From: Oehlia diaphana
Taxonomy: Eukaryota; Glomeromycota; Glomeromycetes; Glomerales; Glomeraceae
Assembly (NCBI GenBank): GCA_003833135.1
Contig: QZLH01000189.1
Location: 8,288 to 72,287 of the forward strand
Length of the DNA: 64,000 nt
Direction: 5' to 3'
Shown: piece after piece, positions 39,912-63,147 of the stretch
Position numbering within the stretch: the stretch's first letter is position 1
Layout: every line of letters starts with the position of its first letter
Translations under genes and position numbers: made by a program
Notes under the pieces: generated by a model
Seen by the model: the letters and a program-made list of their open reading frames with translations, nothing else
Databases searched by the model: none
Told to the model about the DNA's origin: nothing

Positions 39912-42900
39912 TTAGGAGTATAAACCTCCTTTTCCTATTTGTTCCCTTTCTTCATCAGATAGTTTAGGTTTACTTGGATTACTGGATAATCTTCTCCTTT
40001 TTTCATTTTCAACAGCTGCTTGATGAGCTTTAGCAGCCTTATCAACTATATTTTCTACTTCTTTAATGATTTTTTTGAAAGTTTTGTACCATGATGGATC
40101 GTCATCTTCCACATTATTATTCCCTTGTTGTTGTATATTCATTATATAATTTTTTTGAATAACATTAACTATGGTAATTTTGTCTAATTTATTATAACCG
40201 GGTGGCAACATATTTTTTAATGTGCTTATATCATATTCATTATAAGGAGAGGGTAATAATTCTTTTAATGCAATTAAATTCTCATCATCCTTTTCACTAT
40301 AAGGGGGTGGTGGTGGCATTTCTTCACTATTCATTTCATAATCATTTGGACACAATTCATTTAGACACAATTCATCAACAAACTCTTCTGCAACATTATA
40401 ATAATTATATAGATAATTTTTTGTTGAAATATTGAATAAAATCTTAGCATCATTCGCATCATCCGCATCATTCAAATCGGTTGCAATTTTAACTGCATTA
40501 TCTGAAATAACTACATCATCCAAATAATTCTGATGATTAAGTATTTCATCAATATCAAAAATTACTTCATAATTATCTAGATATAATGAATCGTCAATTT
40601 CTTCTATAAGTTTATAATAGTCATATTGATTTTCTGAAATTATGGATAAATCGTTCACATCGTTCACATCGTTCACAACTGTACCATTTGAAATAAATAC
40701 ATTATCATCTAAATGTTTCTGGTGATTAAGTATTTCATCGACGTCAAAAATCACTTCGTAATTATCCAGGTATAATGCATCATCAAATTCTTCTATAAAA
40801 TTACGATTATAGCATTGAATTAAATCCTTTGTATTCTTCGCGTCATTTTTATCGTTCACAATATTTACATCTTTTGTATCTTTTACAACTGCATTATTTG
40901 GAATAAATACATTATCATCTAAATGTTTCTGGTGATTAAGTATTTCATCGATGTCAAAAATTACTTCGTAATTATCCAGATATAATGCATCATCAAATTC
41001 TTCTATAAGATTATGATTACAATATTGAAGTAAATCCTTTGTATTCTTCGCGTCATTTTTATCGTTCACAATATTTACATCTTTTGTATCTTTTACAACT
41101 GCATTATTTGAGATAATTACATCATTATCCAAATATTTCTGGTGATTAAGTGTTTCATCAACATCAAAAATCGCTTCAAAATTATTCAGACGCTTAAATA
41201 TATTCTCACTCTCAGCATAATTATTCTCTTCAACTCCATCGTCATTTGTATCATCAGCATCTTCCACCTCGATAGTTGGTACTTCTTCGATGGATGATCC
41301 CCCAATGGATGATTCCTCGAAGTTTGGCTCCTCTCCGAAGTTTGACTCTTCCTCGGAGTTTGGCTCCTCCTCGATATTTCTCTCTAAAATTTCTTTTAGC
41401 CCCATTAACATCGATCTAACTTCACTTCCGTCTCTAATTCCTTCTAAAATTTCTTTTAATTTTGATAAAATAGGTTCAATTTCGTCTTTTCTTTCGCTTT
41501 CTTCCTTTAACATTTCTTTTAATTTCATTAAAATATGTTCATCAATAGCTTTACCCCGTAACGATACAATATATTCAATTTGAAGTTTTCTTTCATTTTC
41601 TTTTCTTTCGATTTCTTTTTTTTCGATTTCTTTTCTTTCCCTTTCTTTTCTTTTTTCTTCAAATATTTCTACTAGCTCTGATAAAAGATCCTCAACACTT
41701 TTATTCATATTATTATTTGATAGCTTACTATATTCTTCATTCATTTCATTAATATGCTCATCAATTTTACGTCGCTCTTTAAATAATTTGTTTACCCCTT
41801 CAACAATTTGCTTAATTTGTTTACGTTGTTGCTGATGTTCTTTTTGGGAATTCGATAAAGTAGTTATTAATTTTTTAGGAAAACTCAATCTACGAGTTTT
41901 CTCCCCAGGAGAATTAGGGGGAGTAAGGTGAGTAGAGTCAATAGAGTGAGTAGAATGAGTAGAGTGAATAGTGTAAGTAGAGCGAGTAGAATAAATAGAG
42001 CATGAAGATAAAGGTCGTGAAGAAATATTCGTAGAGCTAGTCGTAGGGCTAGACCAGCTGTTGAATTTCGATTCGATCTACAAATAAAAATTTATTTCTC
42101 GTTATAAAAAAAGATTATATATATTTAATGAAGAAAGATTTTTTTTTTTAAATTTTACCTCTTCTTTGAATTCTTGTTTTGTGGTTTTTTCTTTTATAAC
42201 ATATAAAACTTCTACGGCCTTGAAAGTTAATTGTTTTTTAACGTGAGTTTCAATTATTTCATTACAAAAAGGAATTATTTTTTTAATATATTTTTTTATT
42301 TGAGGGAAAAATTCTTCAAGAATTCGTTGGATTAAATGTAAATATCCGATTAAAAGAGTATCGATATTGTCAGGTAAAGAATATCCTAATATTTCCCTAA
42401 AAAAAAAAAAGAAGAAAAAAAAAAAAGGTTTAACGATTACCAATAATTATTTTTTTTTTTTTTTTAAAAAAAAAGAATTCATACATACCCTCCAGATTTA
42501 AGCACTTTATATTCAATATTTCGGTAACTTGTATTCTTTACTTTTACTTTTTCAAATTCTTTGATTGATAATTTAAATAATTTTTTGGCAAATTTTTTAA
42601 TATTTTCTGAATTTGATTGTTGACGTAATGTGAAGTAAGTTTCGTGCATTTCTCTCCAATCATTATACCATTTCCCAGCGGAATATTCAAACTAAACGTT
42701 TTTGAAAGTGGCGCAGCGTTAAAAAATTTGTGGCGAAGTAAAATAAAATATTAAAAAAAAAGATTTTTTTTTTTTTGTTACTTACGTCCAAAACATCAGT
42801 TAAGGAAGAAAGAGCGGAAAAATATTCACTATTCACAACATTAACAACAGTTTCTATAACTTTACTACTTGTTGATACAAAAATATCAAGATTTGATTGA

Positions 42901-43592
42901 TCATCTTTAATTTTTCGCAAACAATTTCGAATTTCACGAAGTCTGAACATGACATTAGCATTAATGCATTTCGTATTTCTATTCGTATTTCTATAAGTTG
43001 ACCAAAATTTCGCGAGAGATTTATAAAAAGAAGTACGAGTATCTTTATCAATCATTTTAACAGATTGAGACAGTACGTATAATACTGATGACATAACGTT
43101 TCTACATATAAATGTGATTGTGTTAAAAGGAAATGAATTGGTAATTGAACAACTTTTACATACTATAAAATTGTACTTACAGAAAAAGTTCCAATTGTGC
43201 TATCGTAGATTCATCATAACATTCCCATTTATGATCCGAAAGAAGTTTTGCCGCTTTAATAGCGAAACATATCACTAAATAGAAAAAAAAAACAAAATTT
43301 AGATTAATTTTTAAATGATAAAATACACGATATAAAGAAACCATACCTTTCTCATCTCCAATACTCTCACTAGGACGACTTATTGAATCTTCCATTAAAA
43401 GAATTGTTTTATGTAAAGCATAATTATAAATTCTAAAATAGTATATTTTTTCAAAAAATAAAAATTTAGTATATACGCTAACATTTTCTTAATCTTTTAC
43501 TATACTTACAAACTATTTTTATCTGCCAACACTTTAAGAATTTCATGATATTCTTTAAATCGTGATTCTGATATTATTGTGTTTGAAGACAT
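39912..43592 (-). CDS. Array gene copy A: unrecognised helical protein with acidic repeats and PPxY tail
   Basis: Seven exons (43592-43510, 43432-43347, 43274-43181, 43101-42786, 42691-42489, 42396-42159, 42077-39912), all GT-AG and in phase; 1061 residues. Residues 1 to about 340 (exons 1-6) are predicted mostly helical by eye, with MEDSISRPSESIGDEKG, FYKSLAKFWSTYRNT, LREIRNCLRKIKDDQ, FEYSAGKWYNDWREM, LPDNIDTLLIGYL and ETHVKKQLTFKAVEVLY. Exon 7 gives a Ser/Thr-rich linker (TIHSTHSTHSIDSTHLTPP), a basic coiled coil (KQIKQIVEGVNKLFKERRKI), four roughly 70-residue acidic repeats, the PPPPPY...LPSPY...LPPGY region and a conserved amphipathic tail KKIIKEVENIVDKAAKAHQ. No signal peptide or membrane segment. 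No family recognised; function unknown. Confidence 0.78.
40540..41220 (-). repeat. 210-bp tandem repeats inside exon 7 of copy A
   Basis: About four units of about 70 codons, each with LDNYEVIFDIDEILNHQ and (in two) VVKDTKDVNIVNDKNDAKNT. The two central units (around 40831 and 41041, 210 bp apart) are almost identical in DNA, so expansion is recent. Related, more diverged units occur in copies B and C. Confidence 0.85.
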
Positions 43593-43639
43593 TTTTTTTT
43601 TTTTTTTCGAAAAGAATGTAAAAATGAATAGTATAAATA

Positions 43640-43690
43640 ACTTTTTGACGTTGTTACACGAATGACACTATTGTTGTTTAATCATGCAGT
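43640..43690 (-). promoter_or_regulatory. Candidate shared promoter element of the array
   Basis: The motif 'ttgttacacgaatgacacta' (43656-43675, plus-strand spelling) about 65-80 bp upstream of copy A recurs upstream of copy C as 'ttgttacacaaatgacgcta' (from about 57082), and in shortened form upstream of the copy B C-terminal ORF ('ttgttacacggtaacac', from 48652). Conservation at like distance suggests a functional element; it could also be recent duplication. Confidence 0.4.
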
Positions 43691-45849
43691 TGACGTCGGG
43701 GTAAATTGAATTATTAAATGGCTATTAGTATTTTTAATAAACTTAGGTAGTATGGAAACTTATTTTGTTTTAGCATTGAAAGGAGAAAAGTTCTCACAGC
43801 AATAAAGAATTAGGAAAGAATAGTAAGCAATTATATGCACATTATCATAAACAATCTTGATTGAACCTTGATTAAAATAAGTAAACTTGAAAGAAATAAG
43901 TATATGTAATATAATTTAAAATATCGGAATTTCGGCAATCCCCTACTTCTTATTGCATCTTCTTATTATTATTATATCATTTAAAAAAATATATATAAAA
44001 AAAAAATTATACCCTGTAAATAAATACATTATAAGCGAATAAACGAATTCATTTTTTATTTTTTATACCTAGTTTCAAATTTAACCAAAAAAGGGGGTTC
44101 GAACCAAAATCAATTAATCAAACGCATATTTTTTTTAGATGAATTCGCCAAGAAAGATTCCATCAATCACATAAAGTAAATCCATTATCCGAATAAGTTT
44201 GACTACGCATATCTAATAATGTACAAGTGTGTTTACATTGTGTACGACGTAATATCATATGCATCATACATATGAAAGTATAATATTAGATGCACAGACT
44301 TTGATCAGAAAATTATTTGGTAAAAAAGTCTCAAAAATAGCGGGATTTTTTTCTTAAAAAATAAAATCAAGTGGAGAAAAGATTCGATTTTAATCCCAAA
44401 AACAGGTAAAAAATTATACCACGAGCGTAAATATTAAGTACAACAAAAAAAAAATTCCCGAAACTTTGATTTTCAAAGTAATTATTAATTATAAAACTTT
44501 TAAAGAACCCCTTTTCAGAACTGATGGGAAAAAAAAACTGTGACTCCCTAAAATATAAACACTTTTCTTTATTTATTTCCCCATGCATAAAATCATACGA
44601 AAATAATTTATCTATGAGTTGATTATTTCGTTCTAATGAACATAAATGGTAAGGAATCCTTTTTTTTTTGTGTTTCATAACATCATGGGACTCGTGTTAC
44701 ATCAATTGTAAAAAATACGATTTCATAAGAATTACGTAGAACGTAGATAAGATTGGAATCAACCATCTTACTAATCGAAAATTAAATTGATTATCTAAAC
44801 CAAGAAAATTAATTTTCTTTTTTTTTTTTTTTTTTGAATGTTAATTTTAGAAACTTAAAATGCACTATTTTTGAAGCAAAAAATTGATCGCCGTCCGACA
44901 TACTAACGCGCAGATATCTTTCATACTTCTCATTACTTGGTATAATAAGTGCCATGTGTTTAGATATTAGAATCAAAAATTCAGAATAAAAATTCCATTA
45001 AGGTTGATTTTTGACTGAATTGAATCGCGACCTTTAAAAGAAAAATGATAATTGAATTTTGTCGCAATTACACAAAATGTTTTTTTAAATCCGAATGATT
45101 TAGTATACAGCCAATTATAAATCATCACTAAATAATGTCAAAGTATAAATTATTAGATTAGGATAAGATTTTTTTTTTTTATTTATATTTTTTAATGTTG
45201 AATCTTCTAAAATTTCACCTTCAAAGAGTACTGTACTACAATTATGTTTTCGATTTCATAATATAATATACTTGTATATGTATAATATTTTTTCAAAATT
45301 TTTTACTTATTATTATTCACAAATTTTTGTTTATATAAGTGTAGATTCAAAACATGAAAGATTTAAAATTGAATTAAAGAGTTTTTTCAACTTTGCCATA
45401 TGCGGTAGTGTAAAAAGTTTGTACTAAAATTAGCTTATAATGGTTACTACTAATTACAGTCTCTATTTTTTTTTTATCAAGTATTTTATAGTAAATTTGC
45501 ATATTTTTTCTCGTATGTGCTTCAAAGATCAGTCTTCATGTCATTTCGACCTCCCGAGAATGTCCCGGTATGTCTAGGAAACGTTCGGGAAATATCTAGA
45601 ACGTTTGGAAAATGTACCGAAATGGGAAAGATTCCTTTCATAGGGATTTCATTATTAAAAAAAAATCAATAAATTTTTATATTACATCAAGAGATTAGTC
45701 AAATAAATTATATTGAACAGTATACTGTACGTTGATTTTTTTTATTTTCTATTTATATCTTAAATCTACTTAAAAAATGATCTTAGATTTAAAGTACTAA
45801 ACAACTTTTTCAATTCAACAATTATCTCTTATCTCTTCACACTTCACTA

Positions 45850-46085
45850 ATTATTATTAACAGCAGCTTGGTGAGTTTCAATGATTTAATTAAAAGTTTT
45901 GAAAATGATTTTTCGTCATATCAGTTGCACATTATCTAATTGTACATTATAATTATTTTGAATAATTAATTATGGTGATGTATGTAATTTGTATGCTATA
46001 TTACTATAAAGAGAGGGCAATGATTCTTTTAGTGCAATTGATATATTAGAATTATTGGAATTCAAGTTTTCTAAAATCGAAATAA
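45850..46085 (-). pseudogene. Relic of the array gene C-terminus
   Basis: Pieces match the tail-coding DNA of copy A in order: 'cagcagcttggtgagtttc' (compare 'cagctgcttgatgagcttt'), 'aagttttgaaaatgattt', 'ttattttgaataattaatta' and 'aaagagagggcaatgattct' followed by 'ttttagtgcaatt' (compare 'aaggagagggtaataattct', 'ttttaatgcaatt'). The frame is destroyed. It shows that the array once had a further copy or that a 3' end was left behind. Confidence 0.6.
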
Positions 46086-47050
46086 ATTTTAAATGAACTA
46101 CTTTACATAATAATTACTCATTATACGAAGGCTTTCAATATTTATTTGTTCTCGCGTTGTAACGAGTGATATAACAAGCTCCTTTGATTCACTCTTGAAT
46201 ATATTTTACTAATCCTATGGTGCATAACATCTAAAGGCATCAAATAAAATTAATGATTTTAAAATATTAACTACTTAATAAAATTTTATGATAATTGAAA
46301 ATATAAACTGATAATTATACTTTAAGTTCTTCTCTTTCAAATTATTGGATTATTTTTTCCATAACTGTCATATTTCAGGAGCTATTAAGATTTAAAGTTG
46401 ATGTATTTTCATATTAATTTATATAATTTTATATGTAAATGGGAAAAATTCGGAATTTTTAATCACGTGAAAATGATTTTAACCAATCATATTAATTTAA
46501 TTTATAATACATAAAATGATCAACATCTTTATTACCAAATTTAGTAATAATCTAACTTTATTTAGTAATAATCTAACTATATTTAGTAATGATCAGCATA
46601 AAATAAATTTCGGACTATTGATGCCTTTAGGTGTTATGAACCATAACTCGTAGAATTAATCACCTGGTCACATGACATTGTCAATAGGAAAATTTCATCG
46701 CACGTGTATATAAATATTTTTTTTCACCTACAATACCTCCCGTTTCTGCCATTTCTTCCATCACTGCGATTGAAAATGCGCCACTCACCCATTTTAGAAT
46801 GGCAGGACCCAAACCTTACTGATACTTTAATAATTTTACAAAAACAAGGGGTTATTGGTTATCTTTAGGAAGTGTATAGCTAACAAGATAGGAGACGAGA
46901 TTGATAGAAGAAATCTTATTTATCAAGTATACAGGAGCTTCTATGCAATATTGAAGCAAGAAATAGTATTTAGGAATAAATTTAAAAATTAAAAAGTGGC
47001 ATATTGTTTATTAATCTAATTAAATTTATATAATAAAATTTTTCAAATCA

Positions 47051-47158
47051 CCGGGGGTGATCATCACCGTTGGCCAGAATTATCAATTTTTACCGGCACT
47101 ATATTTTATAATGCTGGTTGATTGTCATAATTTCAGTCACCGGTGATCAACACCCCTG
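47051..47158. mobile_element. Small inverted-repeat element (about 108 bp)
   Basis: The left end reads ccgggggtgatcatcaccg; the right end, reverse complemented, gcaggggtgttgatcaccgg. Both continue to 'gaaattat/gaattat'. GC-richer than the flanks. No 8-bp duplication is seen, so boundaries are approximate. Confidence 0.55.
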
Positions 47159-47361
47159 CGATAGTTAGAAAAATTCCTTTTAAATTACTATATACTGCAT
47201 AAATTTAACATTTTAACCTTTTCATTAGTTACATTAAGCTTTAGCATAATACATTCAACCTTAATTTTTTAAAAAAATTATTTTAAAGAAACATATTTCT
47301 AAGTATTTTTACTATATCTACTTTTTACGATATTTGTTCCTTTGCAACTTCAGGTTTTACA

Positions 47362-48576
47362 TTAGCAGAAGAGATTATCTATTTCATCAACAAACTCTTC
47401 TGCAACATTATAATAATTATATAGATAATTTTTTGTTTTAATAGTGAGTAAAATCCTCGTATCATTCGTATCATTCAAATCGGTTGCAATTTTAACTGCA
47501 TTATCTGAAATAACTACATCATTCAAATAATTCTGATGTTTAAATATTTCATCAACATCAGAAATTACTTCATAATTATCTATATTATCATCTAAATTTT
47601 TCTGATGTCCAAGTATTTCATCAACCTCATATTTATCTTTATGCATTGAATCATCAATTTCTTCCGTAAGATTATAATTACTATGTTGAATTAAGTCCTT
47701 CGCATCACTCACTGCGTTTATAGCTTCCTTTTCTTTTTCAGATAATTCAGGTTTACTTGGATTACTAGATAATCTTTTTTTTTCAATATTGACAGCAGCT
47801 TGATGAGCTTTAGCAGCTTTATCTACTAGATTTTCTACTTCTTTAACGATTTTTTTGATAGTTTTGAACCATGATGGTTCGTTATCTTGAACATTATTCT
47901 CTTGAACATTATTATTATTCTCTTGTACATTATTCTCTTGTACATTGTTCTCTTGTACATATTTATGGATAATATTAATTATGATATTATTATCTAATTT
48001 ATTATAATCAGGTGGTAATATATTTTTTAACGTACTTATATCACATTCGTTATAAGGGGAAGGCAACAATTCTTTTAATGCAGTTAAATTCTCAATATCC
48101 TTTTCACTGTAAGGAGAAGGTGGTGGTATTTCTTCACCAAACATTTCATAATCAATTAGACATAATTTATCATCAAACTCTTCTACGGAATTATAATAAT
48201 TATATAAATAATTTTTTGCTGAAATATTGAGTAAAATCTTCGTATCATTCGCATCATTCGCATCATTCAAATCTGTTGCAATTTTAACTGCATTATCTGA
48301 AATAACTACATCATCCAAATAATTCTGATGTTTAAGTATTTCATCAACATCAGAAATTACTTCATAATTATCTATATTATCATCCAAATTTTTCTGATGT
48401 CCTCCAAGTATTTCATCAACATCAAAAATTACTTCATAATTATCTACATTATCATTCAAATATTTCTGATGTTTCGTAATATTATGATCACTATTAGTTT
48501 CATATTTTTTGATCGGTATTTTACCAATTAAATCTATATGTTCATCGTTAGTAGAGGTGAATATTGGGGATGACAT
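47362..48576 (-). CDS. Array copy B, C-terminal-only ORF
   Basis: An intact 404-residue ORF with its own ATG (48576) that contains only repeat and tail modules of the family. It runs from a short novel start (SSPIFTSTNDEHIDLIGKIP) through NYEVIFDVDEIL repeats, IPPPSPYSEKDIENL, LPPDYNKLD, VQENN repeats, and the conserved tail TIKKIVKEVENLVDKAAKAH. After that comes a second block of repeats ending EEFVDEIDNLFC, so the order of modules is rearranged. It lacks the helical N-terminal domain, whose broken copy lies 1.7 kb upstream. The upstream TTGTTACAC motif suggests it could be expressed; it may equally be a 5'-truncated fragment that still happens to be open. Confidence 0.55.
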   Translation of the reverse strand: MSSPIFTSTNDEHIDLIGKIPIKKYETNSDHNITKHQKYLNDNVDNYEVIFDVDEILGGHQKNLDDNIDNYEVISDVDEILKHQNYLDDVVISDNAVKIATDLNDANDANDTKILLNISAKNYLYNYYNSVEEFDDKLCLIDYEMFGEEIPPPSPYSEKDIENLTALKELLPSPYNECDISTLKNILPPDYNKLDNNIIINIIHKYVQENNVQENNVQENNNNVQENNVQDNEPSWFKTIKKIVKEVENLVDKAAKAHQAAVNIEKKRLSSNPSKPELSEKEKEAINAVSDAKDLIQHSNYNLTEEIDDSMHKDKYEVDEILGHQKNLDDNIDNYEVISDVDEIFKHQNYLNDVVISDNAVKIATDLNDTNDTRILLTIKTKNYLYNYYNVAEEFVDEIDNLFC

Positions 48577-50180
48577 TTTGAAAAAAATAAGAAAAAAAAC
48601 AGATGGGAATTTTTTAAATTTGAGAAAATGTTAAGAAATAATTTATATTGTTACACGGTAACACAAACTTACACACAAGTATATGCATGAACTTTGTCAT
48701 TTCCATACAACCGAGAATATCTATTTCAATGAAATATTTTTAGTTTCTAACTTGGAAATTTTGAACGCTAATAAGCTATTTAAGTTAGTTACCAAATTAA
48801 CTTTTATAATTCTCTGCTAGGATTATTATCTTTTTGATTATAAAATAACGAACCATAAAATAATAATAGGGAATGACTCGATTCACACAAGAATTGGAAG
48901 GCATGAAGCCATAGTTGCAAAACTTATGCAGTGTGATTTGTTTTCTATAAAAGATCTTTAGAATGATTGTCCAATAAAATCCGAGAAAAAAAAAATTTAT
49001 ACTGCATTAAGTTAGAGATACCCGATTGCCTATTTACCTTGTTGGATTTTTATGTGAATTGTAAAACTATTAATAATACGATAATTCCAGGATTAAAATT
49101 TCTTTTTTTTTTGATAAAATTTGAAACAGTTCCTAGATATATATAATACGTTTTACAATCTAAAATGCTTTTTAAAAGTTATTTAACGCTTAATCTCAGA
49201 ATCAATCTAAAAAAAATATACGAAATGATAAAACAATGCACGCCGATCTGAGGGAATTTTATCTTTTGTCCATTTACCCAATAGAAAGTGTGATGTTGAA
49301 AATATTGAAAATCTACTTCATATATATACAGTGATAGCGGAAAAAACTGACAATTAATAATGGGAATTATCTCGTGTGATTTTTGTCCAAAAATCTTAAA
49401 AATTTAACATAATGCACTTCATAGTACATATTTTAAGGGTATCAATACTTATTAATATATCATGTCATCTTCACTCTCTATTAATAATTCTATAGTTTAA
49501 ATATGAATTTTATTAAATTAAGAGCATAAATTCCTATTAATACCTTTATTTACATGATATTTTTCCACATTTAGTGATTATAAAAAAATAAAATATAGAT
49601 TATCGGAATCGTCTCATCAAGACGAATCAATTGGTGGTAGTTTCATGTTTCTAAATGCAATAGATAAGGAATTATATGTCAAAATGTCAAAATATTAGCA
49701 TTTTTCTTTATTATTTACTGTGTCACTTAAGATTTTAAGATGTTGTCACCAAAATTAAGTCAATTTTTCAAAATGATCAAAATGGATAAATTAATTCGAT
49801 CTTAACACTCAAAAGTCAAAATAGTTGAATTAAAATGTTAATGACTATCATCACCATAAAAAATAACAAAAGTGTTTTAAGGATATTCAGCTTCTAATCA
49901 TCCAATTTTAATGATCTATAGCTCATTTGAAAGACCTATTTAAGAAGATTCAAATGATGATAAGATCATAGCGATAGCATTAATATTGACAGTGCTATCA
50001 TTGTTTAAAGATATAGATGTTTTGCTTATTATTACAGGATCTGCTCAATGATTTTTATACGATAAGATTCATCTCATCGAGAGGATTCTAAAGACATGTA
50101 TTTTATATCTGTAACTATAATATCGACGAAGTTATTGTAGTTTGAAAATTATGTTCTTTCATGATCATTTGAAAATCAAG
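48577..50180. other. DNA separating the two halves of copy B
   Basis: About 1.6 kb with no match to the other copies apart from the first 100 bp (promoter-like). Around 49600-50100 it contains 'ctcatcaagacgaatcaa' and 'atgatctatagctcatttga', diverged pieces of the fold-back element at 7508-8030. Insertion or rearrangement through such an element may have split the gene. No ORF. Confidence 0.45.
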
Positions 50181-50241
50181 TAATATTTTCTTTCGATTTC
50201 TTTTCTTTCTCTTTCTTTTCTTCTTTCTTCAAATATTTCTA

Positions 50242-52196
50242 CTACAGTAGCTCTGAAAAAAGATCCTCAACATTTTTATTCCTTTTATTATTTGATAGCT
50301 TACTATATACTTCATTAATTTCATTAATATGCTCAATTTTACGTTGCTCTTTAAATAATTTGTTTACTCCTTCAACAATTTGCTTAATTTGCTTACGTTG
50401 CTGCTGATGTTCTTTTTGGGGATTCGATAAAGTAGTTATTAATTTTTTAGGAAAACTAAATCTACGAGATTTCTCCCCAGGAGAATTAGGAGGAGTAAGG
50501 TGAGTAGAATCAATAGAGTGAGTAGAATAAGTAGAGTGAATAGTGTAAGTAGAGCGAGTAGAATAAATAGAGTATGAAGATAAAGGTCGTGAAGAAATAG
50601 TCATAGGGATCGAAGTGAAAGAAGAATTAGACCAGTTCATAGAAAAATGTTGTAAATTAGTAGTTACAGGGATCGAATTGACAGAAAGCGGTCGTGAAGA
50701 TAAAGGTCGTGAAGTAATATTCGTAGAGCTAGTCGTAGGGCTAGAAGAAATAGACCAGCTGTTGAATTTCAATTCGATCTACAAATAAAAATTCATTTCT
50801 CGTTATAAAAAAAGATTATATATATTTAATGAAGAAAGATTTTTTTATAAATTTTACCACTTCTTTGAATTCTTGTTTTGTGGTTTTTTCTTTTATTACA
50901 TATAAAACTTCTACGGCCTTGAAAGTTAATTGTTTTTTTACGTGAGTTTCGATTATTTCATTACAATAAGGTAATATATTTTTTTATTTGAGGGAAAAAT
51001 TCTTCAAGAATTCGTTGGCTCAAATGTAAACATCCGATTCCTAATATTTCCCTAAAAAAAAAAGAAAAAAAAAAGGTTTAATGATTACCAATAATTATTT
51101 TTTTTTTAAAAAAAAAAAATTCATACATACCCTCCAGATTTAAGCACTTTATATTCAATATTTCGGAAACTTGTATTCTTCTCTTTTACTCTTTCAAATT
51201 CTTTGATTGATAATTTAAATAATTTCTTGGAAAATTTTTTAATATTTTCTGAATTTGATTGTTGCATTTCTCTCCAATCATTATACCATTTCCCAGCGGA
51301 ATATTCAAACTAATCGTTTTTTTAAAGTGGCGCAGCGTTAAAATTTTGTGGCGAAGTAAAATAAAATATTAAAAAAAAAAGATTTTTTTTTTGTTACTTA
51401 CGTCCAAAACATCAGTTAAGGAAGAAAGAGCGGAAAAATATTCACTATTCACAACATTAACAACAGTTTCTAAAACTTTACTACTTGCTGATACAAATGA
51501 TCAAGATTATCTTTAATTTTTCGTAAACAATTTCGAATTTCACGAAGTCTGAACATGACATTAGCATTAATGCATTTCGTATTACTATACGTATTTCTAT
51601 AAGTTGACCAAAATTTCGCGAGAGATTTATAAAAAGAAGAACGAATAACTGTATTAATCATTTTAACAGATTGAGACAGTACGTATAATACTGATGACAT
51701 GACGTTTCTACATAAATGTGATTGTGTTAAAAGGAAATAAATCGGTATTTGAACAACTTTATGTACTATAAAATTGTACTTACAGAAAAAGTTCCAATTG
51801 TGCTATAGTAGAATCATCATAACATTCCCATTTATGATCCGAAAGATGTTTTGCCGCTTTAATAGCGAATTCTATATCACTAAATAGAAAAAACAAATTT
51901 TTAGATTAATTTTAAATGATAAAACACACAATATAAAGAAACCATACCTTTCTCATTGACTTCAATACTCTCATCAGGACGACTTATTGAATCTTCCATT
52001 AAACGATTTGTTTTATGTAAAGCATAATTATAAATTCTAAATAGTATTTTTTCAAAAAATAAAATTTTAGTATATACGTTAACATTTTCTTAATCTTTTA
52101 TTTGTATGCTTACAAACTATTTTTATCTGCCAAAAATTTAAGAATTTCATTATATTCTTTAAATTGTGTTTCTGATATTATTGTGTTTGAAGACAT
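50242..52196 (-). pseudogene. Array copy B, N-terminal pseudogene
   Basis: Exons 1-7 of the family are present in order (52196-52114, 52036-51948, 51871-51784, 51707-51402, 51309-51131, 51051-50858, then from about 50778 down). Compared with copy A, exon 4 is 10 nt short (306 versus 316) and runs into TAG at 51470; exon 5 lacks 24 nt in frame; exon 6 lacks 44 nt (194 versus 238), out of frame; and exon 7 has a 5-nt insertion (about 50242-50247) creating TAG. Exon 3 would need an acceptor shifted by 8 nt to keep frame. Homology stops at about 50180. It cannot code the family protein. Confidence 0.8.
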
Positions 52197-53398
52197 TTTT
52201 TTTTTTTTTGAAAAAAAAAAACTACGTGTAAAATAATAAGCAAAAGTATTATTAGTTTGTCAGACTCATATAATCATACATTGCATTATATAAAATAAGT
52301 AATTTTAAATAAGGAATATATAAATATAGTCGCATTTTTAAGTTTCAGTTTCAGTTGTTCCGAATCTGCCGAAACCTGGCGAAATTTCCGAAACTTGATA
52401 TAGTGAATTTATCCTTAAAGAATAAAATTAAGCGAAGAAAAGATTTCTACAAGATTCCAAGGCGGTCAGTCGAGAGTGTAGACATTTATTCAAAGTAATT
52501 AATAATATAACTTTAACACTGATGTTTGAAACCCTAACAGATTTTCATGTCACATGAAAACTATTTTATATACTCTCGTTCTAATGAACATGCTGTAAAT
52601 GGTAAAGGATCAATATTATTTATGTTTCAGGACTCGTGCTACGTCAATTAATAAATACATTTCAACGAAATTTCGTAGGTAGAATTTGAAACAAAATCTT
52701 ACTAATTGAAAGTCGATTCGAATCGATTCGAATCAATTTAAATTTTAAAATTATTAGAACAACATACAGTATATGCGATGTTTTTTGAAAATTAAGTTAC
52801 AAAGACACTGATCGACGTACATCGCCACTATCACGCGAATATTTTATTGCGTATGAATAGATTTAGAGCGAATATTTATAATTGGAAAATTAGAAACACT
52901 TAAAACGATCAATCCAATTTTAATTGATTTTTAAAGATTTGATTTTCAACTGAATCGATTAAAAAAAAAATTTCAAAACGAGTTTTTACTGGACATCAGT
53001 TACTTACAAATCTGGATATTAAAATGTGGAATTAATGAAAACTACAAAACGCTTAGATCATTTAGAACACACGAAAGAGCAATTCACCTAAATCATCAAT
53101 CGCAAGTGTACAATAATACTCAGGATAAAGGTAAAATACATTCACTGTACGAAAGTTATTCTTTGAAAAAATTAATTCTTGTCAAACTTTGAAATGAAAT
53201 AATTTCATGAAGACAATCAATATCCAAAGAGAGAAAGTTATTTTTGTGCTTAATATTAGCGTGAATACATTAGTTTTTATTAATAAATACAATAAATAAG
53301 ATACAAAAAAAAAAAATAATAATAAATTTTTTCTATATCTTGTGTCGCGAGTAAATTAGTAAATTTTTTGAATACATATAAAACTTAAAGCCTTAGAG
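52197..53398. other. Region between array copies B and C
   Basis: The first part is the 5' flank of copy B with matches to the flanks of A and C ('aagcgaagaaaagattt', 'cgttctaatgaacat', 'actcgtgctacgtcaatt'). The part next to copy C (53040-53300) resembles the 3' flank of copy A. No gene seen. Confidence 0.5.
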
Positions 53399-56300
53399 TT
53401 ACATATAATTGTGCTCCACAGGAATGCTTGCGTTTATAGCAGCTTCCTTGTCTTTTTCAGATAATTCAGGTTTACTTGGATTACTAGATAATCTTCTTTT
53501 TTTTTCTATATCGACAGCAGCTTGATGAGCTTTAGCAGCTTTATCTACTAGATTTTCTACTTCTTTAACGATTTTTTTGATGGTTTTGAACCATGATGGT
53601 TCGTTATCTTGAACATTATTCTCTTGAACATTATTCTCTTGTTCATTGTTCTTTTGTACATTGTTCTCTTGTACATATATATGGATAATATTAATTATGA
53701 TATTATTATCTAATTTATTATAATCAGGTGGTAATATATTTTTTAACGTACTTATATCACATTCATTATAAGGGGAGGGCAACGATTCTTTTAATGCAGT
53801 TAAATTCTCATCATCCTTTTCACTGTAAGGAGGAGGTGGTGGTATTTCTTCACCAAACATTTCATAATCAATTAGACATAATTTTTCATCAAATTCTTCT
53901 ACGGAATTATAATAATTATATAAATAATTTTTTGCTGAAATATTGAGTAAAATCTTCGTATCATTCGCATCATTCGCATCATTCAAATCGGTTGCAATTT
54001 TAACTGCATTCTCTGAAATCACTATATCATCCAAATAATTCTGATGTTTAAGTATTTCATCAACATCAAAACTCACTTCATAATTATCCAGATACAATGT
54101 ATCATCAAATTCATCTGTAAAAGAATGATTTCTGTATTGAGGTAAATCCTCCACATCAACATCATTTACATATTTTACAATATTCACATCGCTCACGACT
54201 GCATCATATAAAATATTTACATTATCATCCAAATATTTCTGATGTCCAAGTATTTCATCAACATCAAAAATTATTTCATAGTTATCTATATACAATGTAT
54301 AATCAAATCCTTCCGTAAGATTATAATTATTATGTTGAAGTAAGTCCTTCGCATCGCTCACATCACTCACATTATTTACAACTGCGTATTTTGAAATAAT
54401 TACATCATCATCTAAATATTTCTGATGTTCGAGTATTTTATCAACATCAAAAATTATTTCATGGTTATCTATATACGATGTATCATCAAACTCTTCCGTA
54501 TGATGATCGCTATAGTGAGATAAATCCTTTACGTCATTCATATCATTCACTTCATTTACATCATTTACATCATTCACATCATTTGCAACTGCATTATATG
54601 AAATTATTATATCATCTGAATAATTCCGACGTTTAAGCATTTCATCGTTAAAAATATTATCTAGATGATTCACATTATTCATATCATTTACTACCGCATC
54701 TGTATTATCTGGAATAACTATATCCTGTTTAACAGCCTTAATCTCTTCTATGACATTAGCATTTGCAGCTTCTTGTTCAGCATCATCTGCGTCATTTGTA
54801 TTGTCAGTGCTGGGTATTTTCTTTTCTGTGGACGGTTTCTTCTCGATGGTTGATTCCTCAAAGATTGATTCCTCCTCGACATTACTTTCTAAGATTTCTT
54901 TTAATTTCGATAAATTCGATATAATTTCACCCCCTTTTCTATTTCCCTCTAAAATTTCTTTTAAATTTGATAAAATCAGTTCAATTTCATCTTTTCTTTC
55001 ACTTTCTCTCCCTAATACTTCTTTTAATTTTAATAAAGTTTGTTCATCAATAACTTTATCCTCTAACGATTTGATATATTCAATTTTATCCTTTCTCTCG
55101 TTTTCTTTTCTTTTTTTATCTAAAATTTCTTTTAGTTTCGATATAATCGAATGCTCATTAATAGCTCTGTCCTCTAATAATTTAATATATTCAATTTCAG
55201 TTTCATTAATATTCTTATAAATTTTACGTCGTTCTTCAAATAACTTGTTTACTCTTTCAATAATTTGTTTACGTTGTTGCTGAGGATCTTTTTGAGGATT
55301 AGTCTTTTTTATTTTTGGAAAACCTAATTTACGATTTTTTGAAATCGAAGTGGGAGTATCAGGAGTAGTGGAAGTAGAGTAAAAAGTGTAAGAAGATAAA
55401 GGTCGTGAAGGGGTAGTCATGGAAGTTGAAGTGACAGGGAAATTAGACCAGATATCGAAATTCGATTCAATCTATTATAAAAAATTTATAAGAAAAACAT
55501 TCATATACGTTTATTTATAATAAGAAAGATTTATTTTTTTATTTACCTCATTTTTGATTTCTACTTTTTGAGTATTTTCTTTTACAACATATAGGACTTC
55601 TACAGCTTTAAAAGTTAATTGTTTTTTCACATGAGTATTAATTATATCATTACAAAGGGGAGTTATTTTTTTAATGTATCCTTTTATTTGAGGGAAAAAT
55701 TCTTCAAGAATACGTTGGATTAAATGTAAGTATCCGATTAAAAGGGTATCGATATTGTCAGGTAAAGAATATCCTAATATTTCCCTAAAAAAAAAAAAAA
55801 AAGGTTTTTAATGGTTTCCAGTAAAATTCGAAAAAAAAGAACGAAAATGAAATTTATTCTTACCCTCCAGTTTTAAGAACTTTATATTCAAGGTTTCGAT
55901 ATTTTGTATTTTTTCTTTTTACTCTTTCAAATTCTTTAGTTGATAATTTAATCAATTTTCTAATAAATTTTTTAATACTATCTAATTGAAGATTATTTTC
56001 CAAAGATTGTTGATGTAATTTAAAATAAATTTCATGCATTTCTTTCCAATCATCATACCACAACCCAGCGGAATATTCGAACTAAATTAAAGTGGCGCAG
56101 CAATAAAGTTTCAATTTTGTGGCTGGATATAACATTTTGAAAGAAAAAAAAATTTTTTTTTTTTTATGTCACTTACGTTCAAGACATGAGCAACGGAAGA
56201 AAAAGCGGACAAATATTCGCTATTCACAACATTATAAATAGTTTCAATAACTTTGCCACCTGTTGATACAGCATTTTCAAATTTTGATTGATCATCTTCA

Positions 56301-56993
56301 ATTATTCGCAAGCAAGTTCGAATTTCACGAAGTCTGAAGATAATATTAGCATTAATATAATTTGATTTTCTGTAAACTTTCCAGGATTTCGAGACAGTTT
56401 TGTATAAAGAAACACGAGTATCTGAATGGATCATATCAACAGATTGAAAAAGTATGCATAATACTGAAGACATGGCGTTTCTAAATATAAAAAGTGTTTA
56501 ATATGATTGGTTAAAGCATTTGAATAACTTTACATACTATAATTTATAGTAACATGTTTGAAAAAAGTGTACATACAGAAATAATTCTAATTGTACTATA
56601 GTTGAGTCATTGTAATGAGTCCATTTATAATCTGAAAGATGGTTTGCAGCTTTAAGAGCGAAGTCTATCACTAAATATATGAAAAAAAAAAGTTAAAATA
56701 AAGAAGAATTAAAATGATAAAAATCGTATAATATAAACAAAATTACCATGCCTATCTTCAATTCTTTCATTAGGACGTACCAAGTCTTCCATTAAACGAA
56801 TTGTTTCACTCAAAGCATAGTTATAAGCTCTAAATAGGTAATGTTTTCAGGAAAGAAAGAAATTTAGCAATTAGCACATACTTTCTTTTTTTATTCATTT
56901 GCATACTTACAAACAATTTTCATCGGCTAATAATTTAAGAATATCATGATATTTTTTACTATGCGTGTCTAATATAGCTATGTTCGAAGTCAT
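53399..56993 (-). CDS. Array gene copy C
   Basis: Seven exons (56993-56911, 56829-56747, 56670-56577, 56480-56177, 56081-55864, 55784-55547, 55471-53399), all in phase; 1030 residues. Exon lengths 83/83/94/304/218/238/2073 mirror copy A (83/86/94/316/203/238/2166). The N-terminal landmarks are kept (REIRTCLRIIEDDQS, FEYSAGLWYDDWKEM, LKTGG). Exon 7 has a short linker (RPLSSYTFYSTSTTPDTPTS), charged coiled-coil repeats (LEDKVIDEQTLLKLKEVL), then several DNYEIIFDVDEILGHQKYL-type acidic repeats, PPPPPYSEKDDENL, LPPDYNKLD, four or five VQENN copies and the tail KTIKKIVKEVENLVDKAAKA. Function unknown; almost certainly a recent duplicate of A. Confidence 0.78.
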
Positions 56994-59602
56994 TTTTTTT
57001 TTTTTTTTGAAAAAAAAAAGACAACTACAGTAGCTATAATGTCTTAGTAAAAATGATACGATAAATAAATAGCTTTTGGCCTTGTTACACAAATGACGCT
57101 ATTGTTAATGAATCGTGCTGGTTTAAAAATGGGTATATTGACTTTCTTATTTTACAATAGTTTTTAATTACCAATCATATATTAAAATATTTTAAAACAT
57201 GTAAACCGTGTTTTATTTTAGGTTTGAAAGTAAAATCACATATTAATTAGGAGAAAAAAATAATAAAATGTTAAAATATATTAATAGTTCTTCCGACAAT
57301 CGTAATCGTAATTATGCAAGTAATTGCTAATCATACATGATCTTTAGACAATCTTAAAAATATTTCTGATTAAATTGATTAAATGATAAAATAGGTAGCC
57401 TTGAATGACAAAAATATATTAATTTGTTTTTTTTTTTGGCAACTATACACATCGTATTGTATTATATTATTCTTATTAATATTATCGTTATATATATAGC
57501 ATTAAAAAAAAAAAGACCAATAAAAAAAAATATACATATTTAGTTATTAAAAAAAATAAAAAATAAATTATTAATATGACCTAATAATAAATAGTTAAAT
57601 ACTAAAAAAGTGATTTGAACAAAGTTCACCTATTATCCTAAGTAAAACTATAACTTTATGATGATATGAAAGATTTTCATCTTGCTAATCTAATAATGTA
57701 CTATTCCGTTTACATTGTGTACGGAGTACATAACATATGCACTCACGGCGGCATCACGCATTAGATGCACAGACATGATAAGAAATCCTTTGAAAAAACA
57801 TCTCAATAGTGGAATATTCGTAAAGAATAAATTAAGCGAAGAAAAGATTTCCTACAGAGATCGATACTAGTCTAAAAAACGGTCAAAAAATACCACGAGT
57901 GTAGATATTGAATATCATAAGAAAAAATTCTCCGAACTGTGTGATGTAGCTATGATGTCAAAGCCAACTATTTTAACAAACTTAAAGAACCCTTTTTCAG
58001 ATTGATAAAAAAAATTTTGAAACCCAAAAGAAAAGCATTTTTCTTTATTTATATTTCCATGCATAAAATCACACCAAAATTGTTTTTTTCTATGACTTAT
58101 TGATTGATTCGTTCTAATAAGTATAAATGGCGAAGTGGTTTCTTGTGTTTCAAAACGGATAGGGCTCGTGTTACGTGCTACGTTCAATAGAATTTACGTC
58201 AAAATCTGACTAATCGAATTCCGAACTCTTAACATCAATTACATCGATTTTTTTTTTTGAATTTTAACTTTTATAGTAAAAGACAATTGATGCTATTTTG
58301 AAGCTAGAAAATAATTATAGTAACAGATAGATATGGTAAAATAAAATTGCAAAAAAAAAATTGATAGACGCCCGACATGTCTACCGTCTAATATTAATTG
58401 CATGTAGAATCGATTTAGAATAGCCGGAATCAAATATTCAGATCATTATTCAGAATTAGAAGATTAAAACCAATTAGAAACGATTAAATCAATTCTTAAA
58501 TCAATCTTAAAGGTTTGATTATCGACTCGACCTTTAAAAAAAAAATGATAATTGAATTTTTGTCGCCATATTTAAGAATTCAGACGAAGGATTTTTCATA
58601 AATCATTATTATTAGATTAGGATAGGACAATTTTTAAATATTTAAAATAATTATTTTATATCTTTCGATTTCATAATATACTGTATATATATATATATAA
58701 AATTATTACAAATAAAAATCAAAGAAAGAAATTCTTGTACTTATTATCATTCGCAAATTCGGAATGAAAATGAATTCAGTACTGAATTGAAGAATTTTTC
58801 CAATTTTTCCACTACTTTGTCACATAATGTAAATGTTGAATTAAAATAGTTTTTAACGATTATTACTAACTATAATTTCTTAAATGTTATAATTAGTATT
58901 TTAAAACATATCGGCATATTTCTTAATTGAAGATTGCTGTGGTTGATTATATATTAACGAATTTATTTCTTTCAAATTCTTAAATCAATATACGTAACGG
59001 ATACTTTCAGTAGTAGTAGTGAAATAAACAAATATGCTTCTCCTGAGTTTGCGAGTTTGCGAAAAATCCATGATGTGATAAACGCATGCACACAAAGATT
59101 TTTACGTTCATGAGAACGGTGAGAACAGAACAGACTTAAAGAAGTCGTTATAAGGAGCTAAATTAAAGAGATAAAGAGAGTCATAAGCAACTTAAAATTA
59201 ATACCAACTTGAAAGCAGGATGAACATCTATTGAAGATTAGGATTATCAAAATTTCGCGGAATTTTACTCTATATTTACCGATACTCCGATAGTACATGT
59301 ACTGATAATTTTTGCTATTTTATTATGAAAATTCAGCTAAACTTTTAAGAGTAACGTCCCTCGTACATATAGAGTATCGTACATTGAAAAATAAATTATA
59401 AATTATTTTTTTATTTATTTTAATAAATACAGTATATTATGTATGATCTGAAATAAATTACATAAGAGAAATTAAAAGAAATTAAGTAGTTATATTGAAA
59501 CTACATGATGAATTTTTTTTTTTTGATGATTATTAAACTACATAAAATTATCTTAAAATTTACTTAGAAAAAAAAACTTTTTTCTTAGATTTTTTCTTAG
59601 AT
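56994..59602. other. Region between array copies C and D
   Basis: 57000-58600 is homologous to 43600-45100 upstream of copy A, including the TTGTTACAC motif (about 57082) and 'tttacattgtgtacg'. The remainder is AT-rich, with (TA)n at 58686-58703. No convincing gene. Confidence 0.5.
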
Positions 59603-62600
59603 TTAAAATGCAACTTCTTCCTTTTCAATTACTTTTTCAATTATTTCTTCTTTTTCAACCATTTTTTCAATTATTTCTTCTTTTTCAACCATTTTTTCAA
59701 TTATTTCTTCTTTTTCAACTATTTCTTCAATTATTTCTTCATCTTCCTTTATTTCATTAACGGATAAACTAGAATTATTATCATATAAACTAGATCTTAA
59801 AACAGCCTCCCTGTGAGCTTTGGCGGCTTTATCAACAATATTTTCAACTTCCTTAACTATTTTCCTAACGGTTTTTAAAAATACTGAACCTTCATAATCA
59901 TCTGGTTGTTGCGGTTGTTGCACATTATTTACATTTTGGACATTTTGGATAATATTATATTGATTTATTTGATTTATTTGATTTACTTGATTTACTTGAT
60001 TTACTGTAACTATATTTTCTATGTTCGGATTATTGCTTTCCTTCACTTCTGAATCTTCTGAATGAGTTAAAATTATTTCAGGAAGGATTACTTTCTCACT
60101 ATCACTATGTACACTGTCCCCATCATCACATTTTCTACATTCTTCTCTCTCATTCTCTTCAACATTCATATTAATCTCGTCTTTCTTAAGTTGTTGTTCT
60201 TCTGAATGAGACTCGGATGAAATTATATTTTCAACAACATCATTATTTTCATCATTTTTCTCTTTCTCATTCTCCTCAACATCTATATTATTATCTTTCT
60301 TAGGTTCTTCCTCTTCTGAATGAGACTCGGATGAATTTATATTCTCAACAACAACATGGTTTTCATCATTTTCCTCTTTCTCGTTTTCCTCAACATCTAT
60401 ATTATTATCTTTCTTGAGTTGTTCTTCTTCTGAATGAGACTCGGAAGGATTTATACTCTGAATATCAACATTATTTTCATTGCTTTCCTTTTTCTCGTTC
60501 TCATCAATCTCTAGATTATCGCTTTTCACTTCTTTTAAATCATTAATTTCTCTAGTCAAAATAGTTTCAAAAGGTTTTACTTCGTCTACTTCCTCTTTAG
60601 TATTGTCTACACTCTTATCGGGATTCATTTCAACTTCACTAATTTCTTTAGTCAAAACTGTTTCAGCAGAAGATTCTATTTCTTTATGTACATTAATTTC
60701 ACGACTCTCTTCAATTTTTTTACTTTCTTCTTTTATTTCAAAATTATTTACATCCTTATTAGTGATTTTCGTGTTATTATTACTTTCTATATATTTATAT
60801 ATAATAATTTCGCGAGTTTCTGGAGGAGTATTATATATATTCTTGATCTCGTAATTATTATAAATAATTGGTTCAGGTTCAGAAACGAATGGAATTTGTG
60901 GTAATGAAGGTGATGATGTTTCTTTTCTTTTTTCCTCTAAAATTTCATTCAATTTTGCCAAAATTGAATCTGAAAAATTATCAGAATTTTTATCAAAAAC
61001 TTTATCTTCATCTTTAGTATTCACTAGTAATTCGTTATAATGTTTCTTAGTAAGCTCAATATCTTTTTTAATCTTAAGTCTTTCTTCAAATAATCTTTTT
61101 ACGTCATCGATTATACGTTTACGTGTACATTGTTGTTTTAAACTTGATAAAGATCTCGTTACTTTTGTTGGAATTTCTCGAACGCTTATTCTACGACGTT
61201 TTTTTGATTTTTCCTCTTGGGATGGAGAAGTTTTTTCCTCTTTGGGTAAAGAAATCTTTTCCTCATGAGATAAAGGAGTTAAGGTACGAGTTGGAGTATT
61301 TGGAGCAGGATTATAAATAGATTGTGATGGGGAAGAAAATGAAGTATATGCCGAAACAGGAGTGTCGGGAGGCATATTATGTTGAAAAGGTTCTCCATTA
61401 GGCGAAGAAGTAATGATGTCATTTGGTTTATTTTGTGAAGAAGCATAATGAAAAGAAGGAGGAGCGGATAAAGATCGTACAGGAGGAGTTGGTGAAGGAA
61501 CATGATAACTGGACCATTTTTCAAAACTTAATTCAACCTAATGTTGTTTTTTAAATTTCGTATGTTAATAAAAAAAAAAAATAGTTTTAATAATTTAAAA
61601 CATGAAATCAAATATTTACCTCATTTTTGATTTCTACGTTTTCAGTACTTTCTTTTATAAAATATAAAATTTCTATAGCTTTAAATGTTAATTGTTTTTT
61701 CACATGGGTTTCAACTATTTCATTGCAGAATGAAATCAAATCTTTAATATATTTTTTTAATTGAAGAGGGAATTTTTCAAAAAGTTTTTGAATTAATTGT
61801 AAGTATCCAAATAAAAGAGTTTCAATATTATCAGGTAAAGAATATCCTCCTATTAAGCTGTAAATAAATAAAATAAATTAAATAAATTAAATAAATTAAT
61901 TAATTAATTTTGTAAAATAAAAAAGGTATATAAACATATTATAATAAAAAGAAAAGTATTTACCCTCCAGATTTTAGCATTTTGTATTCAAATTTTCGAT
62001 ACTTAGTATTCTTTCTTTTCACTCTTACGAATTCTTTCTTTGATAATTTCATTAATTTTCTATAAAACTTTCTAATGGATCTTGATTCGGGAATATTTTG
62101 ATTTTGTGAACATAATAAAAAAAATTTTTCACGTCTATCTATCCAATCGTAATACCATTCCCCAGCAGGATATTCAAACTATTGATGTAGAGGAATAAAT
62201 AAATAAATAAATAAAAATAAATAAATTTATTTATAAAAAAAAGTAAATTAATACTCACATCTAAAACTTTAATAAAAGAACCAAAAGCGGACAAATATTC
62301 TTTTTGAGCAACACTAACGACAACATCAAAAAAATTACCGCCTATCTTGAATGCTAAATCAGCATTAGATTTGTCATCTTTAATCTTTCGTAAACAATTT
62401 CTAATTTCACGAAGACTGAATATGATATTTGAGTTAATTATACTCGTATTCCTATAAATTGCCCAAAATTTTGAAATTGATTTATAAAAAGTAGCACGAG
62501 TCTTTGAATCTATCATTTTAATAGATTTGGAAAGTATGTGCAACACTGAAGACATGGCGTGACTGCATAAATAAATTGAAAAATGATTAAATGATTAGTA

Positions 62601-62970
62601 AAAGTGAAATGAGTCAACATAATACATTATTTTATTAAATTAAACTTACAGAAAAAATTCTAGTTGCGCTATAGTTGAATTATCATAACAAATCCATTCA
62701 TAATTTGAAAGATGTCCTGCTGCTTTAAAAGCAAAGTTCACCACTAAAAAGAAAAAAAAAAATATTAGGATAAGCGAAGTGAATCAAGTGATATTAAAAC
62801 GAAGGGTAATGAGAAAAACCATACCTATCCTATCTTCAATATCCTCTTTAGGACAACCAACCAAATTATCCATTAAACGAATAGTTTCTTCTAACGCATA
62901 ATTATATGCTCTAAGAAGAGATAATATTTTAAGAGAAAATTTAGTGTGTGCGCATATATATATTTTTTTC

Positions 62971-63001
<31 letters not shown>

Positions 63002-63147
63002 CATAAACAAACTTACAAACTATGGTTATCTGCCAACAACTTGAGAGTCTCATCATATTCTCTAATTTGTATATCCGATAATCTAGTTTCTAAAATAATT
63101 GAATTATCATCTGAATGTTCACTATGAATGCTATGGATTGAACTCAT
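59603..63147 (-). CDS. Array gene copy D (diverged)
   Basis: Seven exons (63147-63017, 62910-62825, 62743-62650, 62562-62259, 62178-61964, 61857-61620, 61537-59603), in phase; 1000 residues. Exons 3 and 6 keep exactly 94 and 238 nt. Exon 1 has 16 extra codons (SIHSIHSEHSDDNS). N-terminal landmarks: MSSVLHILSKSIKMIDSKTR, FEYPAGEWYYDWIDR, ETHVKKQLTFKAIEILY. Exon 7 is wholly different in its middle: a Pro/Ser linker (VPSPTPPVRSLSAPP), then about three 41-residue repeats with EENEKEENDENHVVVENINS and SESHSEEE, yet it retains the family tail KTVRKIVKEVENIVDKAAKA. It ends in about five 10-residue EEIIEKMVEK repeats. The PPxY region is missing. It is the oldest branch of the array. Function unknown. 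Confidence 0.76.
59620..60520 (-). repeat. Two internal coding repeats in copy D
   Basis: Glu/Lys 30-bp units (EEIIEKMVEK type) at about 59620-59740 and 123-bp acidic units (41 codons, SESHSEEE) at about 60150-60520. Both are absent from copies A-C, showing independent repeat turnover in exon 7. Confidence 0.8.

Follow-up and report, generated by a model that had tools for sequence, protein, structure and literature searches.

Here we describe a tandem array of protein-coding genes on contig C189 of the arbuscular mycorrhizal fungus Rhizophagus diaphanus (GenBank QZLH01000189.1, listed under Oehlia diaphana). It was analysed in a window of 64,000 nucleotides, contig positions 8288-72287; positions below are those of the window unless a contig is named. 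All genes of the array lie on the minus strand, from 63147 to 39912, and encode proteins made of a head predicted to be helical, a spacer whose length changes, and a C-terminal tail helix. This anatomy, in which a helical head and a conserved tail helix flank a middle that changes, was first proposed in an original prediction from the sequence alone, and it is borne out by our gene models and by the alignments of relatives. We consider that these proteins are probably two-ended intracellular scaffolds; that they are cytosolic and dock by their tail at a membrane or on another helix seems plausible on balance.

Structure of the array

The genome searched comprises 108.8 Mb in 1672 contigs. The announced tandem array is real, and the announced number of at least four copies is reached only by counting broken pieces: three copies, A, C, and D, are intact in the window. 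Copy A (39912..43592, minus strand; exons 43592-43510, 43432-43347, 43274-43181, 43101-42786, 42691-42489, 42396-42159, and 42077-39912) encodes 1061 residues, with two PPxY motifs close to the tail. Copy C (53399..56993, minus strand; exons 56993-56911, 56829-56747, 56670-56577, 56480-56177, 56081-55864, 55784-55547, and 55471-53399) encodes 1030 residues, with two PPxY motifs close to the tail and one LPQY. Copy D (59603..63147, minus strand; exons 63147-63017, 62910-62825, 62743-62650, 62562-62259, 62178-61964, 61857-61620, and 61537-59603) encodes 1000 residues and has no PPxY. These spliced models all present 7 exons, GT..AG introns, and intron phases 2,1,2,0,2,0, with an exon 3 of 94 nt and an exon 6 of 238 nt, exactly as had been noticed at first. 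The splicing of model D is supported by its letter-for-letter identity with a database protein, P0002 (hypothetical protein C1646_749375 of Rhizophagus diaphanus). Beyond the window, the array has a fifth copy, E (contig C189, from 81511 downwards; 887 residues). It keeps the phases of A, C, and D and their 94-nt exon 3, but its exon 6 measures 232 nt (exons before the last: 137, 80, 94, 292, 215, and 232 nt).

The repeat units are spaced by 70, 70, and 63 residues in A and by 61 and 68 residues in C, and D contains units of 38 and 10 residues. Thus, the 70-residue units proposed for A (apart from the last spacing) and the 10-residue units of D are found again; those of C do not have this length, and the longer unit of D is of 38 residues, not 41.

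Decay and recombination inside the array

What had been described as a single gene, copy B, is really two pieces. The first one is a broken A-like head (50186..52196, minus strand), delimited by exon-by-exon DNA alignment to A. Its exons are 85-97% identical to those of A (for exon 7, over the first 478 nt only), and the frame is broken in exons 4, 6, and 7 by indels whose lengths are not divisible by three. In exons 3, 6, and 7, the best local alignments start only after 8, 45, and 43 bases, respectively, and the match to A stops at 50186. This piece has no tail, contrary to the claim that the tail is kept in all copies.

The second piece is a separate headless open reading frame (47362..48576, minus strand; ATG at 48576, stop at 47362, 404 residues). 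Its upstream stretch and first codons are E-like (48984-48495, 66% identity); its body is 93.4% identical to the repeats and tail of C (48396-47713) and is followed by additional repeats; and another E-like patch lies beyond its end (47369-47305, 89%). It reads PPPSPY where C has PPPPPY, and retains the second PPxY (LPPDY). It looks like an E-type gene whose interior has been replaced by C-type repeats and tail. Judging from these sequences, the genes of the array duplicate, decay, and recombine, since it contains both the broken copy B and a hybrid with E-like flanks and a C-like body.

Extent of the family

At least 22 head matches were found in the own genome. Of these 22, 21 are on the array contig, and the remaining one is a short fragment on contig C201 (around 41974-42075), whose 102 nt are 97% identical to window positions 62352-62251, where exon 4 ends and the following intron begins. 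Because it covers an exon-intron border, this fragment is a DNA-level copy. Protein database searches gave 27 distinct relatives (P numbers), from Rhizophagus irregularis, R. diaphanus, R. clarus, Glomus cerebriforme, three Funneliformis species, one metagenome, and Dentiscutata erythropus. As these searches scored around 8000 candidates sharing most words, the genus list does not exclude other fungi; as far as they tell, the family appears confined to the arbuscular mycorrhizal lineage.

In a tree of 22 head sequences, D joins R. irregularis P0003, R. clarus P0004, and G. cerebriforme P0005 (100/100), A is placed with P0008 and P0015 (100/99), and C clusters with P0021 and P0011 (100/100); copy E sits on a long branch without firm placement. 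P0011 (R. irregularis, 1695 aa) is annotated as a fusion of a protein kinase with the repeats and has, by eye, a D-like first exon and a C-type head; it is either a gene-model artefact or a further recombinant. The R. clarus relatives bear the locus tags 00250018, 20, 26, and 27, and the database entries of numbers 18, 26, and 27 and of P0022 (a near-twin of number 20) each give a contig of 1,265,072. From these entries alone, an array is likely in R. clarus too, because the locus tags are near-consecutive and the listed contig size is the same.

No mention of six family locus tags was found in the literature searched, and we recognised no description of the family in the accessible portions of the literature on Rhizophagus amyloid motifs, tandem or lineage-specific families, and armadillo or orphan genes. 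Within this literature, as far as those portions go, the family is undescribed. To our knowledge, there is no precedent for this order of parts, each of which is of a known kind.

What varies, and between which proteins

We compared the identity of the head, of the middle, and of the 30-residue tail helix in 15 pairs, eight of which are given here (head, middle, and tail, in %): D-P0003, 97, 95, and 100; D-P0004, 80, 66, and 93; D-P0005, 75, 60, and 73; A-C, 70, 59, and 80; A-D, 60, 26, and 63; D-E, 55, 34, and 47; D-P0016, 52, 30, and 33; and D-P0027, 40, 32, and 21. By these alignments, only close relatives conserve the tail helix better than the head; at larger distances the helix persists as a pattern, less kept than the head. 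The same order of parts is recognisable by eye up to P0027 of Dentiscutata erythropus.

Within one species, the four R. irregularis A-type proteins P0008, P0009, P0010, and P0012, whose locus-tag prefixes suggest different strains, form six pairs. Their heads are 99.4-100% and their tails 100% identical, both free of gaps. Their middles are 97.0-99.8% identical where aligned, with 0-77 gap columns, and one pair differs by one 70-residue unit; indeed, five repeat units are recognisable in P0008 and four in P0009 and P0012. Less comparable are P0015, with a head identity of around 95%, and P0020, whose model lacks 44 residues of the head. R. diaphanus A and R. irregularis P0008 share 89.8% of the head and 90.5% of the middle (104 gap columns). 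Between P0001 and P0003 the middle measures 891 versus 550 residues, with heads and tails of equal lengths; P0001 contains a long internal duplication, which may be real or an effect of assembly or annotation.

We also calculated the ratios of nonsynonymous to synonymous substitution rates (dN/dS) by NG86 for six paralogue pairs. They reach 0.37-0.46 in the heads, 0.45-1.08 in the linker, and 0.25-0.71 in the tails of five pairs (the sixth is undefined). For the middle, they lie between 0.26 and 0.94, below 1 in all six pairs, a weak indication given that five of these pairs have a dS above 1. Altogether, 22 of the 23 defined values between paralogues are below 1. As read from these sequences, the middle of exon 7 changes its length within species; its sequence differs mostly from one old paralogue type to another.

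These results bear on the proposal that the array is a self/non-self or allorecognition locus, the exon-7 middle being a diversifying display. Such a locus would fit with the decay and recombination of the array, with the low identity of the middle between types (26-34% for A-D, C-D, D-E, and A-E), and with the variable repeat length among R. irregularis proteins. On the contrary, diversification of the display is argued against by heads and tails that are fixed in R. irregularis around near-identical middles varying mainly in length, by a middle as similar as the head between A and P0008, by the dN/dS of the middle, and by the absence of NLR and HeLo from the 20 Pfam families matched at E<=1 by 23 relatives. 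We judge this proposal improbable. Of the function first put forward, the adaptor or scaffold half stands and the self/non-self half is not supported.

The head

No known domain had been assigned to the head, and our searches agree. Precomputed Pfam annotation is empty for 26 of the 27 relatives, the exception being P0011 with its kinase. Pfam searches with A and the first 527 residues of D gave only matches below the cut-offs (Tau95, E 0.015; PoNi_N, E 0.021; HTH_70, E 0.34), and so did P0026 and P0027 (best E 0.081 and 0.17). Among the matches of the 23 relatives searched singly, tabulated without cut-offs, the best was Med15_N (E 0.002, in two members), all others being at E 0.022 or above. 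A profile search against PDB sequences gave at best E 0.21, for the UPF0335 protein 6jyk, followed by design constructs.

The structure prediction that had been suggested for the head (around 340 residues) returned an all-helical model with a predicted TM-score (pTM) of 0.71. Its arrangement resembles ARM/HEAT solenoids, with fold scores below the level that the tool treats as meaningful. The sole Pfam match of ARM/HEAT type is Arm_PDR, at E 0.15 in one of the 23 relatives, and none was obtained for A, the first 527 residues of D, P0026, or P0027. From this model, we infer that the head may be an alpha-solenoid.

The tail helix and the PPxY motifs

The tail helix, KEVENIVDKAAKAH in both A and D and KEVENLVDKAAKAH in C and the headless open reading frame, is basic and strongly amphipathic. 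A search for tails outside the array gave only C937 (E 0.46; its frame starts, by eye, with a MYND zinc finger look-alike) and C1492 (E 0.76). In P0027, DDEAKRKST repeats lie downstream of the tail helix, and A, C, and D have RRLS or RRIS; we take the DDEAKRKST repeats to resemble kinase sites.

Directly ahead of the tail helix stands an Asn/Gln-rich hydrophobic motif, which in D (residues around 875-900) shows a three-residue period (VNQVNQINQINQ). This motif (INQYNIIQNVQNV in D, INVIKENYVINIQQ in R. clarus P0007) could stack in a beta or amyloid-like form, making these proteins signalling proteins assembled by their tail in the manner of HET-S. By eye, it is found ahead of the helix in A, C, D, E, and relatives, with an altered form in Dentiscutata. 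However, a low-confidence helix is predicted at the motif in the full-length model of D, which is of poor quality, and Pfam gives no cell-death domain in the 23 relatives; we regard such an assembly as highly improbable.

A and C contain two and three [LP]PxY motifs, counts that are reached by 0.7% and 0% of 300 shuffles, respectively. Four Funneliformis proteins carry PPxY as the A and C types do. In Funneliformis P0016-P0019, a module of around 80 residues starting with PPPY occurs, by eye, twice ahead of the tail, and the second module of P0018 and P0019 no longer has its PPPY. In the own genome, three WW matches (contig C7, minus strand, 134860 to 134192) adjoin HECT exons (133854-132712), and together they form a candidate for a single, putative ligase gene. 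From these motifs, it is possible, if somewhat unlikely, that the A and C types act as PPxY adaptors of a ubiquitin ligase.

Two observations weigh against this ligase part: PPxY is absent from D and E, hence ligase recruitment cannot be what the family as a whole does, and 12 of the 15 WW matches lie away from the HECT locus. Both are compatible with a passive spacer, in which the acidic repeats would simply separate the two helical ends and recruit no ligase, PPxY binding another WW protein or nothing; a length that changes at ordinary substitution rates fits too. Such a spacer explains less well that PPxY is retained between the Rhizophagus A/C types and Funneliformis within an otherwise changing part, and we find it rather unlikely.

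Proposed mechanism and significance

In the two-ended scaffold that we favour, the helical, ARM/HEAT-like head would bind a partner. It would be followed by a basic Ser/Pro-rich linker, a helical stretch, and a long spacer of acidic repeats, free to change in length. The basic amphipathic helix at the C-terminus probably serves as a membrane anchor or docks onto a second helix. In the A and C types, the PPxY module just ahead of the tail would recruit a ligase of the Rsp5/NEDD4 type and bring it to the cargo held by the head, as PPxY adaptors do. The most elaborate version, i.e., Glomeromycota-specific, membrane-tethered ubiquitin-ligase adaptors with an alpha-solenoid cargo head, produced by one recombining array from a PPxY-bearing ancestor of A/C and D/E, with a repeat number that would tune their reach, is in our opinion unlikely as a whole.

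Many proteins of arbuscular mycorrhizal fungi have no assigned domain, and this family provides a concrete anatomy of head, spacer, PPxY, and tail helix, as well as a small locus in which to trace how such genes arise, decay, and recombine. The turnover of nutrient transporters is central to the symbiosis of these fungi. If the PPxY motifs are read correctly, the family would add a further type of adaptor for Rsp5-like ligases.

Other candidates and other features of the window

Two other identities were rejected. A secreted effector does not fit with a highest 19-residue hydropathy mean of 0.75 in the first 48 residues of A, C, D, and E (plain hydropathy scan). A viral or transposon gene is argued against by the spliced genes, the relatives in four genera, and the absence of any match at E<=0.001 in a library of viral structures. 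Elsewhere in the window, satellite-like tandem arrays with units of around 50 bp and 70 bp occupy 1266-2329 and 4903-6142. The neighbouring genes (9800-38300), named by eye from their open reading frames, are ribosomal L11-like, WD40-like, zinc-finger, poly-Q F-box-like, P-loop NTPase, glycogen/starch-synthase-like, and P-type ATPase genes.

Comparison with known systems

HET-S combines a helical N-terminal part with an Asn/Gln-containing motif near the C-terminus, and by eye the array proteins resemble HET-S/HeLo cell-death proteins in both respects. They differ by the lack of any HeLo Pfam match in the 23 relatives, by their long acidic spacer, and by the amphipathic helix after the motif. 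The predicted head also has a helix arrangement like that of ARM/HEAT scaffolds, such as importins, beta-catenin, APC, CNOT9, and TOG domains; it differs from them in sequence, the Arm_PDR hit excepted, and its fold scores stay under the meaningful level.

Another comparison is with the PPxY adaptors of Rsp5/NEDD4, i.e., the alpha-arrestins (ARTs) and Sna3. The arrestin fold is a beta-sandwich, whereas the head model consists of helices only, and no arrestin family appears among the Pfam matches at E<=1 of A, the D part, and the 23 relatives. In yeast Sna3, a PPXY motif is reported to mediate binding to the WW domains of Rsp5 (PMC2171029). Sna3 has a membrane span, unlike the array proteins in the hydropathy scan. 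Like these adaptors, A and C carry PPxY in a flexible region near the C-terminus, they may share with them a link to the membrane, and WW and HECT matches adjoin each other in their own genome.
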